Shown: positions 32,611 to 63,771 of the stretch, one piece after another
Layout: each line of letters begins with the position of its first letter
Position numbering within the stretch: the stretch's first letter is position 1
DNA from: Lachnospiraceae bacterium
Lineage (GTDB): Bacteria > Bacillota > Clostridia > Lachnospirales > Lachnospiraceae
Length of the DNA stretch: 64,000 nucleotides
Direction of reading: 5' to 3'
Assembly: GCA_022763925.1 (NCBI GenBank)
Contig: JALERW010000016.1
Span: forward strand, 1-64,000
Notes under the pieces: model-generated
What the model saw: the letters and a program-made list of their open reading frames with translations, nothing else
Databases searched by the model: none
What the model was told of the DNA's origin: nothing
Program-made: the position numbers and the translations under genes

Positions 32611-32902
32611 AACAGAATGAAGAGGAAACCGAAGAGAGAGAGTAGTAGATCAGTGTAAGAAGGTTCAGAGAGCCGCCGGTGGTGTGAGTGCGGTACGGAT
32701 TCCTGATTGAATGGACTCTTGAGGACAGCCTGAAAGGCAGTATAACATTACTGCATAGTAGGCGCTGGCGGGAACCGAACCCGTTATCAATCAGGCATGT
32801 ATGTTTGTACATGAGAGAGTGGACTATAAGTCAATTTGAGTGGTACCGCGATAATGATCAGATTATTACCGCCTCAGAATTTTTTCTGAGGCGGTTTTTG
32901 TT
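32611..32902 (+). ncRNA. T-box leader, specifier predicted UGG (tryptophan)
   Basis: Specifier context TGATTGAATGGACTCTTGAG (TGG 32712-32714); T-box core TTGAGTGGTACCGCG (32836-32850); terminator ACCGCCTCAG...CTGAGGCGGTTTTT (32868-32900). Confidence 0.9.
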
Positions 32903-33055: not shown

Positions 33056-34105
33056 ATGAAGAAGAAAGTTATGGCATTACTTTTAACCGCAGCATTATTT
33101 GCATCCCTGACCGGATGCGGAAGCAAGACAACAGAGGAAGCAGCGGACACGAAAGGAACGGAGGCGGCAGAAGAGAGCAGTGAGAGCACCGCAGAGGAAG
33201 GAAAGGATACATATAAGATTGCTGTGATCAAGCAGATGGATCATGCATCCCTGGATGAAATCGCAGACGCGATCTGCGCAGAGCTGGACGCTGTCGCAGA
33301 GGATCAGGGAGTTACCGTTGAATATGAGGTATATTCCGGACAGAATGATCAGACGACCTTAAAGCAGATCGGAGATCAGGCAGTTGCCGACGGAGTGGAT
33401 GCCATTATTCCCATTGCCACCCTTGCGGCGCAGGTTGCCACCGTATGTGCGGAAGAGACAAAGACTCCTGTGATTTATGCGGCAATCTCTGATCCGAAAG
33501 CTGCAGAGCTGACCGGTATTGATTATGTGACCGGAACAAGTGATGCATTAAATACTTCCTTTATTCTGGATATGATGCTGGCACAGAATCCGGATGTGAA
33601 AAATGTAGGTTTGCTGTATTCTCTGTCCGAGACCAATTCCGCAACGCCGATCGCAGAGGCAAAGGCATATCTGGATGAGAAGAAAATTGCATATACCGAG
33701 CAGACAGCCAACACCAATGACGAGGTGGTTGCAGCTGCTTCTTCCCTGATTGCATCCGGTGTGGATGCGGTATTCACCCCTACCGATAATGTGATCATGG
33801 CAGCAGAGCTGGCAATTTATGAGGAACTGGCACAGGCAGGGATTCCTCATTATACCGGAGCAGATTCCTTCGTACGAAACGGCGCATTTGCAACCTGCGG
33901 AGTAAACTATACGGATCTCGGAACGAAGACGGCGGATCTGGCATTTACATCCATTACCGAGGGTATGGACGGACTGGAAGACTGCTATCTGATGGACGGC
34001 GGTATCATTACCGTGAACACCGAGACGGCAGCAGCACTTGGAATTGACCCTGCCGTATTTGCGGATATGGGCGAGCTGGTTGAGGTTGAGACAACGGAAG
34101 AATAG
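33056..34105 (+). CDS. trpX: ABC transporter substrate-binding lipoprotein (TrpX-like)
   Basis: Lipobox LTGCGS; ABC_sub_bind-type sequence; downstream of Trp T-box. Confidence 0.8.
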   Translation: MKKKVMALLLTAALFASLTGCGSKTTEEAADTKGTEAAEESSESTAEEGKDTYKIAVIKQMDHASLDEIADAICAELDAVAEDQGVTVEYEVYSGQNDQTTLKQIGDQAVADGVDAIIPIATLAAQVATVCAEETKTPVIYAAISDPKAAELTGIDYVTGTSDALNTSFILDMMLAQNPDVKNVGLLYSLSETNSATPIAEAKAYLDEKKIAYTEQTANTNDEVVAAASSLIASGVDAVFTPTDNVIMAAELAIYEELAQAGIPHYTGADSFVRNGAFATCGVNYTDLGTKTADLAFTSITEGMDGLEDCYLMDGGIITVNTETAAALGIDPAVFADMGELVEVETTEE

Positions 34106-53775: not shown

Positions 53776-53826
53776 TTGACAGGATAAATGTCCGGTGCTA
53801 ATATACTACTAAACCGATAGGAAATA
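53776..53826 (+). promoter_or_regulatory. cysK leader promoter and putative operator
   Basis: TTGACA (53776-53781)-N17-TAATAT (53799-53804); CCGATAGGAAATA (53814-53826) near the predicted +1; same block at 60633-60684. Confidence 0.8.
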
Positions 53827-53845: not shown

Positions 53846-53905
53846 ATGACAGTAAGAAAAACAAATATGAGGAAGAGCGGACGAATGTGCTGTTGTCTTC
53901 CCTAA
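53846..53905 (+). CDS. Leader peptide [19 protein letters not shown] (putative Cys-responsive uORF)
   Basis: SD AAAGGAG then ATG 53846; three consecutive Cys codons just before LP-stop; upstream of cysK; absent from ORF track. Confidence 0.7.
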
Positions 53906-53991: not shown

Positions 53992-54924
53992 ATGGCAAAT
54001 ATTTATAAAGGAACTCTTGGACTGATCGGGAATACCCCCCTGGTGGAAGTGGTGAATATTGAGAAGGAGCTTGGACTGGAAGCTTCGGTGCTGGCGAAGC
54101 TGGAATATTTCAATCCGGCCGGAAGTGTAAAGGACCGTATCGCAAAGGCAATGATTGAGGATGCTGAGCAGAGAGGAGTTCTGAAGGAAGGCTCCGTAAT
54201 TATCGAACCCACATCCGGGAATACAGGCATCGGCCTTGCTTCTATTGCAGCTGCCAAGGGATACCGGATTATTCTTACCATGCCGGAGACGATGAGCGTG
54301 GAGAGAAGAAATATTTTACGGGCATACGGTGCAGAACTGGTTCTGACAGACGGAACCAAGGGAATGAAGGGAGCCATTGCCAAGGCAGAGGAGCTGGCGG
54401 CAGAGATTCCCGGAAGTTTTATCCCGGGCCAGTTTGTTAACCCGGCGAATCCGGCGATACACAGAAGCACTACCGGTCCTGAGATCTGGAAGGATACCGA
54501 CGGAGCCGTGGATATTTTTGTCGCAGGCGTAGGAACCGGCGGAACGCTGACCGGTGTCGGTGAGTATCTGAAAGCACAGAACCCGGACGTGAAGATCGTG
54601 GCGGTTGAGCCGGCAGGTTCTCCGGTTCTTTCCGAAGGCAAGGGAGGCCCGCACAAGATCCAGGGTATCGGTGCAGGATTTGTACCGGATGTGCTGAATA
54701 CGAAGGTTTATGATGAGATTATTAAAGTAGAGAATGAGGATGCATTTGCAACGGGCAAGCTGATCGCGAAGAAGGAGGGCGTCCTGGTGGGAATCTCTTC
54801 CGGAGCAGCGCTGTTTGCAGCGATTCAGCTGGCGAAGCGGCCGGAGAATAAAGGCAAGACCATTGTGGCACTGCTGCCGGATAACGGAGACCGGTATTAT
54901 TCCACCCCACTCTTTGCAGAGTAA
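53992..54924 (+). CDS. cysK: Cysteine synthase A (O-acetylserine sulfhydrylase)
   Basis: [50 protein letters not shown]. Confidence 0.95.
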
Positions 54925-54972
54925 AAGGAACAACAGAACAGAAAAAACACAGAAAGAATGAGGAATCCCGAT

Positions 54973-56283
54973 ATGAGCGAGAAAATCACAAGAGAAAACA
55001 GAAAATTCAAATTTGAAACATTACAGCTTCACGTAGGACAGGAAAAACCGGATCCGGTTACGGATGCGAGAGCGGTTCCGATTTACCAGACATCCTCTTA
55101 TGTATTCCGCAACTGCGATCATGCTGCGGCGAGGTTTGGCCTTTCGGATGCCGGAAATATTTATGGGCGTCTTACCAATCCCACCGAGGATGTGTTTGAA
55201 CAGAGAATTGCAGCTTTGGAAGGCGGTGTGGCGGCGCTGGCCGTTGCATCCGGAGCAGCAGCCATCACCTATACGATTGAGAATCTCGCTCAGAATGGTG
55301 ATCACATTGTATCTGCCAAAAATATTTACGGCGGATCTTATAACCTTCTTGCCCATACGCTTCCGCAGTATGGAATTACCACCACCTTTGTGGATGTTTT
55401 TGATCTTGATGCGGTGGAAGCTGCGATTCAGGATAATACGAAGGCTGTTTATATTGAGACACTTGGAAATCCCAACTCGGATGTGGTGGACATTGAGGCG
55501 GTGGCAAAGATCGCCCATGCCCACAAGATCCCTCTGGTGATCGACAATACATTTGCTACCCCGTATCTGGTAAGACCCATTGAATACGGCGCAGATATTG
55601 TCGTACATTCTGCAACCAAGTTTATCGGAGGACACGGAACCAGCATCGGCGGTGTAATCATCGACAGCGGCAAATTCGACTGGGAGGCATCGGGCAAATT
55701 CCCGTCCCTTACGGAACCGAACCCGAGCTATCATGGCATCAGCTTTACAAAAGCGGTCGGTCCTGCGGCGTTTGTAACAAAAATCCGGGCGATTCTTCTC
55801 AGAGATACAGGAGCAACCATTTCTCCGTTTAATTCCTTCCTGTTCTTACAGGGGCTGGAGACTCTGTCCCTTCGTGTGGAGAGACATGTGGAGAATGCAT
55901 TGAAGGTTGTGGATTATCTGAAAAATCATCCTCAGGTGGAGGCGGTTCATCATCCGTCTGTATCTGAAGATGAAAGTCAGAAGGGACTTTATGCAAAATA
56001 TTTCCCCAATGGCGGCGGATCCATTTTTACGTTTGAAATCAAAGGGGATGCAAAGAAGGCAAAGGATTTCATTGATAATCTGGAATTGTTCTCTCTGCTG
56101 GCCAACGTGGCAGATGTGAAGTCTCTTGTGATCCATCCGGCAACGACGACTCACAGCCAGTGCACCGAGGAGGAACTGCTGGATCAGGGTATTAAGCCGA
56201 ATACGATCCGTCTGTCCATCGGAACGGAGAATATTGATGACATCATTCAGGATCTGGATGAGGCATTTAAGGCAGTAGAGTAA
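54973..56283 (+). CDS. metY: O-acetylhomoserine aminocarboxypropyltransferase/cysteine synthase family
   Basis: FETLQLHVGQEKPDPVTDARAVPIYQTSSYVF; YGRLTNPTEDVFEQRIAALEGG; VVHSATKFIGGHGTSIGGVIID. Confidence 0.93.
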   Translation: MSEKITRENRKFKFETLQLHVGQEKPDPVTDARAVPIYQTSSYVFRNCDHAAARFGLSDAGNIYGRLTNPTEDVFEQRIAALEGGVAALAVASGAAAITYTIENLAQNGDHIVSAKNIYGGSYNLLAHTLPQYGITTTFVDVFDLDAVEAAIQDNTKAVYIETLGNPNSDVVDIEAVAKIAHAHKIPLVIDNTFATPYLVRPIEYGADIVVHSATKFIGGHGTSIGGVIIDSGKFDWEASGKFPSLTEPNPSYHGISFTKAVGPAAFVTKIRAILLRDTGATISPFNSFLFLQGLETLSLRVERHVENALKVVDYLKNHPQVEAVHHPSVSEDESQKGLYAKYFPNGGGSIFTFEIKGDAKKAKDFIDNLELFSLLANVADVKSLVIHPATTTHSQCTEEELLDQGIKPNTIRLSIGTENIDDIIQDLDEAFKAVE

Positions 56284-58453: not shown

Positions 58454-59205
58454 ATGCTTAAGGTAAGTCATATCAGAAAGTCCTTCGGGGAGAAAGAAGT
58501 CCTGAAGGACGTAAGCCTCGAAGTGGATAAAGGGGATGTGGTAGCGATCATTGGCCCGAGCGGAACCGGGAAACCCACCCTGCTTCGCTGCATGAACTGC
58601 CTGGAGAAGGCGGACGGCGGGAGTATTGCGATTCAGGATGCAAAGTATACATTTCCAAAATCTCCCAGAAAGGAACTGCTGAGGCTGCGCAGAAAGACGG
58701 CAATGGTATTTCAGCATTTTATCTGTTTCGGAATATGACAGCACTGGAAAATGTGATGGAGGGACTGGTCACGGTACAGCATATTCCGAAAAACCAGGCC
58801 AGGGAAGCGGCAATGGAAGAGCTGAAACGGGTAGGGCTCCAGGAGGAAGCAGATCAGTATCCAAGCCGGCTTTCCGGAGGGCAGCAGCAGCGGGTGGCCA
58901 TTGCCCGGGCACTGACATTAAAGCCTCAGGTCATTCTGTTTGATGAGCCGACCTCCGCCCTGGATCCCGAGCTGGTGGGGGAAGTGCTGGATACCATGAA
59001 GAAGATTGCCGGAACGGGAATCACGATGATTGTTGTCACCCATGAGATGAGTTTCGCCAGGACCGTGGCAAACCGTGTGGTGTTTATGTCAGAGGGACGA
59101 ATTGTGGAGCAGGGGAAGCCGGAGGAAATTTTCAGAAATCCGAAAGAGGAGGCCACGAGAAAGTTCCTGAACCGGATTCTGGAACAGTTTGTATATCAGA
59201 TCTGA
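58454..59205 (+). pseudogene. Amino-acid ABC transporter ATP-binding protein, frameshifted and Walker A altered
   Basis: [13 protein letters not shown] (Walker A K-P-T); frame break at [10 protein letters not shown] versus [11 protein letters not shown] near 58722. Confidence 0.88.
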
Positions 59206-59219
59206 CAAAGGAGAATATC

Positions 59220-59893
59220 ATGCAGATTCAATTTGCCTATATAGGAAAAATGCTCCGGATAATCGGAGGGGCCGTACCGTATACTCTTTTTATTACGGCG
59301 GTTTCCGGCATTCTGGGGCTTTTGCTGGCCGTGGCAAGAGGAAGAGGAAAAGGAGTGCTTTATCATGTGCTCGGAGTATATGTATCCTTTTTCAGGAGCA
59401 CTCCATGTATCACTCATATTTTCCTGGCCTATTACGGAGTCCCTCTGCTGATGAAGCTTCTGATTCCGGGATGGGAGGATACGAACGGCCGTACATTTTA
59501 TGCGATTCTGGCGTTGTCCCTGTTTAACGGCTCCCATATGTCTGAATTTATACGTCCGGCTTATCTGTCTGTGGAGAAGGGACAGCTGGATGCGGCAGAC
59601 AGTATTGGCATGGGCGCTGGAAGCGGTTTGTCCGGGTGATCTTTCCGCAGATGCTTCCGGTAGCGATGCCCAATCTGGAAAATGCCATGATCGAGCTTGT
59701 AAAGGACACATCCGTATTATATATGATCGGGCTGACGGATATTATGGGGAAAGCGAAAAAACTGATCACCAATGATTACGGAGTAAGAAAGCTGGAGGTG
59801 TATCTTGCGGCGGCCTGTCTCTATTGGGTGATTACATTCGTTGTATCGAAAGCCTTTCGGCAGCTTTCCAGAAAATGCATCAGGGAGTGGTAA
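59220..59893 (+). pseudogene. Amino-acid ABC transporter permease, frameshifted
   Basis: ...DAADSIGMG | RWKRFVRVIFPQMLPVAMPNLENAMIELVKDTS... spans two frames, break near 59614. Confidence 0.88.
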
Positions 59894-60632: not shown

Positions 60633-60684
60633 TTGACAAACCTTTGGGAAGGTGCTAATATTCCTATAAAGCCGATAGGAAATA
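60633..60684 (+). promoter_or_regulatory. metQ leader promoter and putative operator
   Basis: TTGACA (60633-60638)-N17-TAATAT (60656-60661); TTCCTAT-AAAGCCG-ATAGGAA inverted repeat (60661-60681); CCGATAGGAAATA (60672-60684). Confidence 0.8.
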
Positions 60685-60729
60685 AGAAAAAGAAAGATGT
60701 ATTTTTTTCAGATGAGAGGAGGAAAAGGC

Positions 60730-60903
60730 ATGAGCAGCAGAAGAATTCGGAGCGGAAAAGCTATAGACTGGAAAACCGTCATGTGTTATGATATGTGCAT
60801 GTGCTGCGATATGGACATGTGTTTTGGTATGTGCATGTGCCGCATCATGAAGGATCAGACGCCTTTTGCCTCTGACGGACACATTGACTTCGATTTGTCG
60901 TAG
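60730..60903 (+). CDS. Met/Cys-rich leader peptide (57 aa)
   Basis: MSSRRIRSGKAIDWKTVMCYDMCMCCDMDMCFGMCMCRIMKDQTPFASDGHIDFDLS; SD AGAGGAGG; 15 of 23 residues in the core are Met or Cys. Confidence 0.75.
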   Translation: MSSRRIRSGKAIDWKTVMCYDMCMCCDMDMCFGMCMCRIMKDQTPFASDGHIDFDLS

Positions 60904-60954
60904 GGTGTCCGGCTCATTGCTGAAGTTACCCGCCGGGTTATATCAGATATGTAA

Positions 60955-60990
60955 GAAGCAGGAGGCAGAACGCTTCCTGTTTTTTATTTT
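60955..60990 (+). terminator. Rho-independent terminator in metQ leader
   Basis: CAGGAGG-CAGAACG-CTTCCTG followed by TTTTTTATTTT. Confidence 0.8.
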
Positions 60991-61080
60991 CCGGGAGGGA
61001 CTTGCGTAAAGATGGTAATTCCGATCGAGCACATCGGATTTGCATATTATTTATATTTCAAAAGAAAGAAGGATGAAATT

Positions 61081-61965
61081 ATGAAAAAGTTTATTGCATT
61101 ACTGTTGACCGGCGCTCTGGCTGTATCTGCACTGACCGGATGCGGTTCCAAGGAAGAGAGCGCAGCTCCTGCAGCGGAAGTGCAGGAGGAGACGAAGGAT
61201 GAGGCAGAGGAAGCAGAAGCTCCCGCAGAGGAAAAAGGAACCATTACAGTGGCTGCATCCGCAACGCCCCATGCAGAGATTCTGGAGCAGGCAAAGCCGA
61301 TCCTTGCGGAAGAGGGATGGGATCTGCAGGTAACCGTATTTGATGATTATGTACAGCCGAACCTGGTAGTGGAGAGCGGAGATTTTGATGCCAACTATTT
61401 CCAGCATATCCCATATCTGGAGAACTTCAATGAAGAGCAGGGAACCCACCTGGTAAATGCAGGCGGCATTCACTATGAGCCCTTTGGAATTTATCCGGGA
61501 ACAAAGGCAAGTCTGGACGAGCTTGCTGAGGGAGATGTGATCGCAGTTCCCAATGATACCACCAATGAGGCAAGAGCCCTTCTTCTTCTGGAGGCAAACG
61601 GTGTTATCAAGATAAAAGAGGGTGCAGGACTTACTGCTACTGTTCTGGATATCGAGGAGAACCCGAAGAACATCCAGATCCAGGAGCTTGAAGCTGCGCA
61701 GGTATCCCGCGTAAAGGATGAGGTTGCATTTGTTGTTCTGAACGGTAATTACGCACTGGAAGCAGGCTTCTCCGTAGCAAAGGATTCCATCGCATATGAG
61801 TCCGCAGACTCCGAAGCAGCCAAGACCTATGTGAATGTGATTGCTGTCAAGGAAGGCAATGAGACCAGTGAGGCAATCAAGGCTCTCGTGGCAGCATTGA
61901 CCTCTGATGAGATCGTAACCTATATCGAAGATACCTATGACGGAGCGGTTGTTCCGTTTAAATAG
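61081..61965 (+). CDS. metQ: Methionine ABC transporter substrate-binding lipoprotein (MetQ/NlpA family)
   Basis: ITVAASATPHAEILEQAKPILAEEGWDLQV; DANYFQHIPYLENFNEE; lipobox LTGCGS. Confidence 0.93.
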   Translation: MKKFIALLLTGALAVSALTGCGSKEESAAPAAEVQEETKDEAEEAEAPAEEKGTITVAASATPHAEILEQAKPILAEEGWDLQVTVFDDYVQPNLVVESGDFDANYFQHIPYLENFNEEQGTHLVNAGGIHYEPFGIYPGTKASLDELAEGDVIAVPNDTTNEARALLLLEANGVIKIKEGAGLTATVLDIEENPKNIQIQELEAAQVSRVKDEVAFVVLNGNYALEAGFSVAKDSIAYESADSEAAKTYVNVIAVKEGNETSEAIKALVAALTSDEIVTYIEDTYDGAVVPFK

Positions 61966-62111: not shown

Positions 62112-63119
62112 ATGGAACCGATTATCCAGGTGGAACATGTGAGCAAGACGTTCCAGTCCACGACAGGGCCGGTGTCTGCCTTAAATGACGTAAGCTTCAC
62201 CATCGACAAGGGAGAGATTTTCGGAATCATCGGTCTGTCCGGAGCGGGAAAGAGTACGCTGGTGCGCTGTCTGAACCTGCTGGAGCGGCCCACACAGGGA
62301 GATGTGATCGTAAACGGCAGCAATCTGTGTGCCATGACGGAAAAACAGCTGCGGGAGAGCAGAAGAAAGATCGGCATGATTTTTCAGCATTTCAATCTTC
62401 TCATGCAGCGCAATGTGCTGGACAATGTATGCTTTCCGATGGAGATTGCAGGTGTCAGCCGTAGAAAGGCCAGAGAACGGGCATTGGAGCTGTTGAGGAC
62501 CGTGGGACTGGAGGATAAGGCCAGATCGTATCCGGTACAGCTTTCCGGCGGACAGAAGCAGCGCGTGGCCATCGCCAGGGTGCTGGCGGGAGATCCCGAG
62601 ATTCTGCTCTGCGATGAGGCAACCAGTGCTTTGGATCCCCAGACCACCAAGTCTATTCTGGAGCTTTTGCAGAACATCAACCGTACCTATGGAATTACGA
62701 TTGTTGTGATCACTCATGAAATGAGTGTTATCCAGCAGATCTGCAATCGGGTTGTGGTGCTGGATCACGGAGAGCTTGCAGAGAGCGGAACGGTGGAAGC
62801 ATTGTTCCGGGCGCCGAAGACAGAGGCGGCAAGACGGCTTATTATCACAGGAATGGAGCAGGTAGAGCAGATGAAGGGGGCAAGGCTGATCCGTCTTACC
62901 TTTGATAATCATTCTTCCTTTGAACCGGTGATCGGAAATCTTGTACTTCAGTATAAGACTCCGGTAAATATCATGTATGCCAATACCCGGGATGTGGGAG
63001 GCATGGCCCAGGGAGAAATGATCCTGCAGCTTCCGGACGGTGAGATCGGAGACCGTATGATCGATTATCTGCGGGAAAAATCTCTTGGAGTGGAGGTGCT
63101 GAAGGATTATGTGGAGTAA
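62112..63119 (+). CDS. metN: Methionine ABC transporter ATP-binding protein
   Basis: GLSGAGKSTLVRCLNLLERPT; LSGGQKQRVAIARVLAG; C-terminal NIL-type domain. Confidence 0.94.
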   Translation: MEPIIQVEHVSKTFQSTTGPVSALNDVSFTIDKGEIFGIIGLSGAGKSTLVRCLNLLERPTQGDVIVNGSNLCAMTEKQLRESRRKIGMIFQHFNLLMQRNVLDNVCFPMEIAGVSRRKARERALELLRTVGLEDKARSYPVQLSGGQKQRVAIARVLAGDPEILLCDEATSALDPQTTKSILELLQNINRTYGITIVVITHEMSVIQQICNRVVVLDHGELAESGTVEALFRAPKTEAARRLIITGMEQVEQMKGARLIRLTFDNHSSFEPVIGNLVLQYKTPVNIMYANTRDVGGMAQGEMILQLPDGEIGDRMIDYLREKSLGVEVLKDYVE

Positions 63120-63771
63120 AGATATGATTATGATGCTGGTGGAGGGAACCGGGGATACCCTGTATATGACCCTGATGTCTACACTTTTCGGATATATTCT
63201 CGGCCTGCCTATGGGAATCATTCTGACCATAACGGATAAGGACGGGATCCGCCCTCATGCGGCGGTATACAAGGTTCTGGATTTTATTGTAAATCTGGTA
63301 AGAAGTATTCCGTTTCTGATTCTCCTGATTCTGGTAATTCCTCTGACAAGAGCGATCGTCGGGAAAAGCTATGGCTCCACGGCTACGATTGTGCCGCTCG
63401 TGATTGCGGCAGCTCCGTTTATCGCGCGTATGGTAGAGTCTTCTCTGAAGGAAGTGGATAAAGGAGTGATCGAGGCGGCTCAGAGTATGGGAGCCGGTAC
63501 CTTTACCATTATATGGAAGGTGCTTCTGGCAGAAGCCCGTACTTCCCTTCTGGTTGGTGTTACCATTGCTACGGGAACCATTCTGGGATATTCCGCCATG
63601 GCAGGAACCGTAGGAGGAGGAGGTCTGGGAGACATTGCGATCCGCTATGGCTATTACCGGTATCAGTCGGATGTCATGATCGTTACGATCGTGATTCTGG
63701 TTGTGCTGGTGCAGATCCTTCAGGGGCTGGGGATGATGATCTCCAAAAAGATCGACCGGAGACGGGCGTAA
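63109..63771 (+). CDS. metI: Methionine ABC transporter permease
   Basis: GTGDTLYMTLMSTLFGYILGLPMGIIL; IWKVLLAEARTSLLVGVTIATGTILGYSAMAGTVGGGGLGDIAIRYGYYRYQ. Confidence 0.95.
   Translation: MWSKDMIMMLVEGTGDTLYMTLMSTLFGYILGLPMGIILTITDKDGIRPHAAVYKVLDFIVNLVRSIPFLILLILVIPLTRAIVGKSYGSTATIVPLVIAAAPFIARMVESSLKEVDKGVIEAAQSMGAGTFTIIWKVLLAEARTSLLVGVTIATGTILGYSAMAGTVGGGGLGDIAIRYGYYRYQSDVMIVTIVILVVLVQILQGLGMMISKKIDRRRA

Follow-up and report, generated by a model that had tools for sequence, protein, structure and literature searches.

A Met/Cys-codon leader upstream of metQNI in a Lachnospiraceae bacterium, a probable ribosome-mediated transcription attenuator with counterparts before sulfur genes across the family

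The metQNI operon of a Lachnospiraceae bacterium is preceded by a short open reading frame (ORF) crowded with Met and Cys codons, and folding and comparison with relatives make it very probable that this leader is a ribosome-mediated transcription attenuator of the classical kind. The operon lies in a stretch of 64,000 nucleotides (JALERW010000016.1, positions 1 to 64,000), the whole of which is called the window hereafter. The parts of the element, their mutual exclusivity, the stall geometry, and the recurrence of such leaders before sulfur genes across Lachnospiraceae were all computed, and it is likely that the leader in the window senses two inputs, Met and Cys. Several hallmarks of an attenuator are found here, namely a promoter, a ribosome-binding site and a short ORF, a cluster of control codons, a terminator before the first gene, and an antiterminator exclusive of that terminator (in the window, from folding only).

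The metQNI leader and its alternative RNA structures

The features of the leader and the operon are as follows.

60633-60661, + strand: promoter of the metQNI leader, sigma-70-type, TTGACA-17-TAATAT with an extended -10
60661-60681, + strand: operator-like inverted repeat TTCCTAT-N7-ATAGGAA, overlapping the transcription start at the metQ leader
60718-60729, + strand: Shine-Dalgarno region, "region 1", forming 12 bp with region 2 with a 1-nt bulge
60730-60903, + strand: leader peptide ORF of 57 codons, translated as MSSRRIRSGKAIDWKTVMCYDMCMCCDMDMCFGMCMCRIMKDQTPFASDGHIDFDLS*
60781-60849, + strand: core of the leader ORF, 23 codons with the control codons for 8 Met and 7 Cys
60861-60873, + strand: region 2, with the antiterminator 5' arm at 60864-60873
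60876-60911, + strand: hairpin over the leader stop codon, inside the antiterminator loop (folding)
60952-60966, + strand: terminator 5' arm, "region 3"; the antiterminator joins 60961-60970 to 60864-60873
60972-60986, + strand: terminator 3' arm and U-run, "region 4" (folding)
61081-61965, + strand: metQ, NlpA-type methionine-binding lipoprotein (Pfam/NCBIfam matches)
62112-63119, + strand: metN, ABC ATPase with a NIL domain (Pfam/NCBIfam matches)
63109-63771, + strand: metI, permease (MetI above the NCBIfam cut-off)

The Shine-Dalgarno sequence GGAGG itself occupies 60718-60722, 7 nt 5' of the leader ATG. A first-pass annotation of this DNA had reported a 57-codon ORF at 60730-60903 whose centre counts 8 Met and 7 Cys among 23 residues, and exact counting agrees. 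When the 1057 short ORFs on both strands of the window were scored for Met plus Cys in their densest 16-residue stretch, the leader reached 12 and the runner-up 6; none of the 232,734 ORFs in windows simulated with a second-order Markov model attained the score of 12. The Met/Cys density of the leader ORF is far beyond chance.

The terminator, placed by the same annotation about 50 nt past the ORF and before metQ, was overlooked by a simple scanner and found by folding as a 15-bp hairpin with the loop AGAAC, followed by a U-run. It starts 49 nt past the leader stop, and the local hairpin has a dG of -19.4 kcal/mol. Counting from the first base of the last Met codon (60847), region 2 begins 14 nt downstream. 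It has two complementary partners: the 3' half of the terminator left arm with the loop, and the Shine-Dalgarno region of the leader. With the former it can form an antiterminator of ten continuous pairs (60864-60873 with 60961-60970; dG -16.4; z -2.57 for the terminator left arm against region 2), the core of which is a match of GCCTCTG (60868-60874) to the terminator left arm that had been put forward tentatively. A stem also suggested near the leader stop, GTCCGGC with GCCGGGT (60907-60913 with 60932-60938), appeared in no predicted fold and was rejected; the hairpin at 60876-60911 is found there instead, with a separate small hairpin 3' of it.

Nascent RNA was then folded with the terminator right arm absent and with the ribosome masking everything as far as 15 nt past the first nucleotide of its A-site codon. 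All ten antiterminator pairs formed for every tested A-site codon through the last Met (60847), four were left with the A site at 60856, three codons past that Met, and none from 60868 onward. The cluster of control codons therefore ends where a stall barely frees region 2. The antiterminator and the terminator exclude each other in this folding, which is the kind of mutually exclusive structure that the first-pass annotation had proposed to look for. In ribosome-free RNA, region 2 was held by the Shine-Dalgarno region with a mean pairing probability ranging from 0.57, with the terminator 3' arm not yet transcribed, to 0.75, so that an untranslated leader should terminate. Furthermore, between the completed terminator state (-54.5) and the antiterminator state (-45.9) there is a difference of about 8.6 kcal/mol in favor of the terminator, and the switch must hence be kinetic, as is usual for attenuators.

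We infer that the leader is translated in the cell and that ribosomes stall on it. RNA polymerase would make the leader while a ribosome behind it translates the 57-codon peptide. When Met-tRNA or Cys-tRNA is scarce, the ribosome would stall somewhere among the 15 Met/Cys codons, leaving region 2 (60864-60873) free to pair with 60961-60970 of the terminator left arm; this antiterminator pairing would block the terminator and let metQNI be transcribed. When both amino acids are plentiful, the ribosome would run on and mask region 2, and the terminator (60952-60986) would form. The terminator would form too in a leader that is not translated, where the Shine-Dalgarno region (60718-60729) would sequester region 2.

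Met/Cys leaders across Lachnospiraceae

A tblastn search with the 57-residue leader against 98 relatives gave chance matches only. Low-complexity leaders need to be found by position, and metQ and MetI loci were therefore gathered instead, as a set of 80 metQ loci and a set of 100 MetI loci with one per genus. At the MetI loci, Met/Cys-dense ORFs (at least 8 Met/Cys in 16 residues) made up 25 of the 1106 short ORFs whose stop falls in the 450 nt 5' of met genes. In other places, the opposite strand included, they were 6 of 12,341 (odds ratio 47, p = 3e-22), and four of these six are candidate leaders lying farther upstream of met genes on the same strand. In terms of genera, 29 of the 100 with MetI have a Met/Cys-dense short ORF at a met operon. 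A terminator was present within 130 nt past the stop in 29 of 30 Met/Cys ORFs, the one in the window included, as against 75 of 1028 (7%) control short ORFs in the same place. Examples of the leaders are VMCMMDKEMRMCMCMSMS in Blautia (L048, L053), DMMMCSCGIMCGMHM in Coprococcus catus (L047), EDMMMCCFSCMCM in Anaerobium (L092), and MNMCMMNDMCMMMCRM (L171). The first-pass annotation had proposed to look upstream of metQ and metN in relatives, and Met/Cys-dense leaders with a terminator do recur there across the family; together with the stall geometry, they support its claim of a classical leader-peptide attenuator architecture.

The leader in the window is tied to this family by design, not by sequence. 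It has no sequence-level orthologue among three genomes of its genus, two of which are without metQ; in the third, which carries metNIQ, the 3.2 kb retrieved upstream contained no leader. Also, many metQ loci and met operons of the family are without a leader. At four loci (L094, L097, L098, and L109), a strong hairpin upstream of metN was considered as a leader and rejected, since there is no Met/Cys ORF there. This conserved hairpin, GGCCGGTTATAGGTTT...CTATAACCGGCC and then ATATTTTTTATATATTTG, lies about 140 nt upstream of metN, suggesting another, candidate control element before metNIQ.

Antiterminator pairing was also examined beyond the window. Among 42 leaders with a terminator, complementarity between the terminator left arm and the leader sequence 3' of the core exceeded that of dinucleotide shuffles (mean z -1.35, p = 2.5e-5), whereas the right arm, taken as a control, showed no such excess (z -0.05). 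One subfamily, R1, comprises alignable leaders with the peptide MC(C)CRMxxS[RQ]A (MCCRMLNSRA), in which TCCC[GA]GGCA of the leader pairs with TGCC[CT]GGGA of the terminator. In its founding set of 12 sequences, aligned by sequence alone, 95.4% of cells pair, with three double-change pairs. A covariance model built on R1 matched 46 of 397 family genomes, in 42 genera; over 50 distinct sequences, in an alignment that was fitted to the model and thus leans towards structure, 96.2% of the helix cells were paired, compensatory changes occurred in five of the nine pairs, and there were 26 double-change cells versus 5.5 in shuffles (0 of 500). Sliding the partner destroyed this covariation signal. 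The model had no match in the window or in the rest of this genome, which places the window leader outside R1. In the metNIQ-type leaders (MQMNMxMMNGM), the candidate for region 2 is weak, G-U-rich, and located around the stop codon; a simple region 2 was without statistical support in these leaders and was rejected.

R1 leaders precede metY (O-acetylhomoserine sulfhydrylase; the largest group), cystathionine gamma-synthase/lyase, cysK, SBP3-MetQ fusions, and metNIQ, and those before metY are found in other families of the order as well. At L243:1501-1651, an R1-type leader precedes a glycyl-radical enzyme whose nearest match is (2S)-3-sulfopropanediol dehydratase, and organosulfonate use may belong to the regulon of the Met/Cys leaders.

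One amino acid or two, and the second leader

The window holds a second leader, which is followed by two genes of sulfur assimilation.

53846-53905, + strand: second leader, with Cys-only clustered control codons and a good Shine-Dalgarno sequence, upstream of cysK-metY
53992-54924, + strand: cysK, 86% identical to a cysteine synthase A
54958-56283, + strand: metY-like O-acetylhomoserine aminocarboxypropyltransferase (sequence comparison)

No terminator was found for this Cys-only leader, and its mechanism may differ from that of the metQNI leader, being Rho-dependent or translational. The second copies of cysK and metY in this genome (C18, C69) have no Met/Cys leader. The promoter before the cysK leader resembles that of the metQNI leader, and the two have CCGATAGGAAATA in common (53814-53826 and 60672-60684), in a start-proximal position and, at metQ, as part of TTCCTAT-N7-ATAGGAA. 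Among the promoter-like places of this genome, CCGATAGGAAATA occurs only at the metQ and cysK leaders, where a putative DNA-binding sulfur regulator might possibly act on both promoters. As a genome-wide operator, CCGATAGGAAATA was rejected, since its remaining matches in this genome appear to fall in coding DNA. Similar CCTA(Y)...GTAGG palindromes are seen near leaders at L048, L053, L062, L072, L087, L123, L141, and L166.

Across loci, the median fraction Met/(Met+Cys) of the leader core is 0.78 for metNIQ (n = 26), 0.56 for metQNI (n = 5), 0.50 for fusion/cystine operons (n = 19), and 0.37 for cysK (n = 6), and the p value of 7e-8 between metNIQ and thiol-assimilation genes is optimistic as the sequences are related. 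This tracking of the regulated genes by the composition of the leader is indirect evidence, drawn from codon counts, yet it offers the strongest sign that both amino acids matter. In the fusions (e.g., L034:3125-4744 and similar QNI loci; about 540 amino acids), MetQ is fused behind an SBP_bac_3 domain of the polar amino acid/cystine type, and the operons contain cystine-type permeases, which suggests a combined cystine/methionine importer.

It is possible, though we think it rather unlikely, that the leader in the window is an attenuator that senses a single amino acid, most probably Met, with the Cys codons being neutral or tuning the stall. The decisive codon by geometry is indeed the last Met (60847), 14 nt 5' of region 2, and metQNI is a Met transporter operon; in R1 leaders, by contrast with the window, it is the last Cys that appears from the alignment to be the codon leaving region 2 just clear. 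In the window, however, region 2 was free with a stall at every tested control codon, the Met:Cys ratio tracks the downstream genes across loci, and a further leader in the window, the one at cysK-metY, has Cys codons alone in its cluster, all of which argue against a single input.

The remaining explanations fare worse. It is very improbable that the element is an arrest peptide, or an RNA bound by a small molecule as in an undescribed riboswitch, with incidental Met/Cys codons; the motif CRMxxS[RQ]A and the nucleotides CGAATG are conserved in R1 leaders, as such a mechanism would have it, but Met/Cys density recurs among leaders with no other shared sequence, the composition tracks the regulated gene, and no Rfam family was found. 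Still less credible is a small peptide, rich in Met and Cys, that has a function of its own (in redox or in binding metals or thiols) and is cotranscribed with metQNI by coincidence. While dense Met/Cys can bind copper or other metals, the peptides are mostly unconserved between genera beyond their Met/Cys codons, RNA pairing, with its compensatory changes, accounts for the conserved S[RQ]A of R1, almost all Met/Cys ORFs have a terminator behind them, and the peptide in the window has no Pfam or NCBIfam match. Chance, i.e., a random Met/Cys-rich ORF beside an unrelated terminator, can practically be set aside: short tandem duplication can yield ATGTGC repeats, but this reading is already refuted by the simulated ORFs, the family-wide enrichment, and the association with terminators.

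Taken beyond the window, attenuation by Met/Cys leaders leads us to lean towards a broader reading, namely that Lachnospiraceae and some other families of the order have a sulfur-amino-acid regulon under leader-peptide attenuators, spanning metNIQ, metQNI, SBP3-MetQ fusions, metY, cystathionine enzymes, cysK, and possibly organosulfonate genes. The mix of Met and Cys codons would encode the signal of each operon, with true two-input leaders at mixed operons, and the regulon would replace an S-box regulon that has shrunk to metK.

Relation to known regulators and other features of the window

In Firmicutes, Met genes are thought to be controlled by S-box riboswitches, T-boxes, or repressors, and Met is not among the amino acids that, to our knowledge, are read by leader-peptide attenuators. 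No known RNA was detected at the leaders with Rfam at gathering and permissive thresholds. The only SAM riboswitch (RF00162) of this genome is at metK, with none upstream of metQ, and across 61 sampled relatives the Lachnospiraceae genomes with a SAM riboswitch all have exactly one. None of the 14 T-boxes (RF00230) of this genome is at metQNI, and searches of 35 loci, either with a leader or taken for comparison, revealed neither a SAM riboswitch nor a T-box.

Classical leader attenuators are those of trp, his, thr, and ilv in Proteobacteria, with which the metQNI leader has in common the clustered control codons, regions 1 to 4, an exclusive antiterminator and terminator, and termination by default; for dual sensing, the nearest parallel is thrL, which has Thr and Ile codons. 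The metQNI leader differs from them in its predicted reading of Met and/or Cys, in its occurrence in Lachnospiraceae, in the use of the Shine-Dalgarno region as region 1, and in its targets of transport and sulfur assimilation.

Leaders with Cys codons have been described elsewhere. In Actinobacteria, cys genes are preceded by a short leader in which runs of Cys codons lie close to the stop, and no terminator was seen (PMC1262725). These resemble the cysK leader of the window in their Cys codons and in being without a terminator, but they belong to another phylum and have no Met codons and neither the terminator nor the antiterminator, both of which are present in the metQNI element. The uORFC-8-2 motif before cysS in Rhodobacterales has tandem Cys codons in an upstream ORF and a stem plus U-run terminator; unlike the metQNI leader, it has only two Cys codons and is confined to cysS and alphaproteobacteria (PMC8632094). 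Within Firmicutes, ribosome-mediated attenuation is shared by the His leader of hisZ/hisS* (PMC2965389) and the ilv leaders of Listeria (PMC5864092) and Staphylococcus (PMC5794164), which have His or branched-chain codons and occur in Bacilli; none of them senses Met or Met and Cys. The S-box riboswitch and the Met/Cys T-boxes of Firmicutes (for clostridia, PMC2940859) act on the same sulfur genes and also by premature termination, but they sense SAM or uncharged tRNA directly by RNA and are absent from the leader loci. In the literature consulted, which was largely without subscription papers and preprints, the leaders found in Firmicutes were those for His and branched-chain amino acids, Cys leaders came from outside Firmicutes, and there were none for Met or for Met and Cys; the class of Met/Cys leaders before sulfur genes has apparently not been described before.

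Widespread Met/Cys leaders in a dominant gut family would explain how sulfur amino acid uptake is controlled with one SAM riboswitch per genome. The ratio of Met to Cys codons, set against the function of the operon, would furthermore offer a ready code, and Lachnospiraceae would be a place where leader peptides may have replaced riboswitches.

Some other features of the window are worth recording. At 32623-32879, a T-box leader (RF00230) precedes an ABC substrate-binding protein (33056-34105) and a permease. A cystine-type ABC ATPase and its first permease (58454-59205 and 59220-59893) are each split into two overlapping ORFs in different frames, reflecting either assembly errors or pseudogenes. 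A group II intron fragment (group-II-D1D4-3) is located at 510-624.
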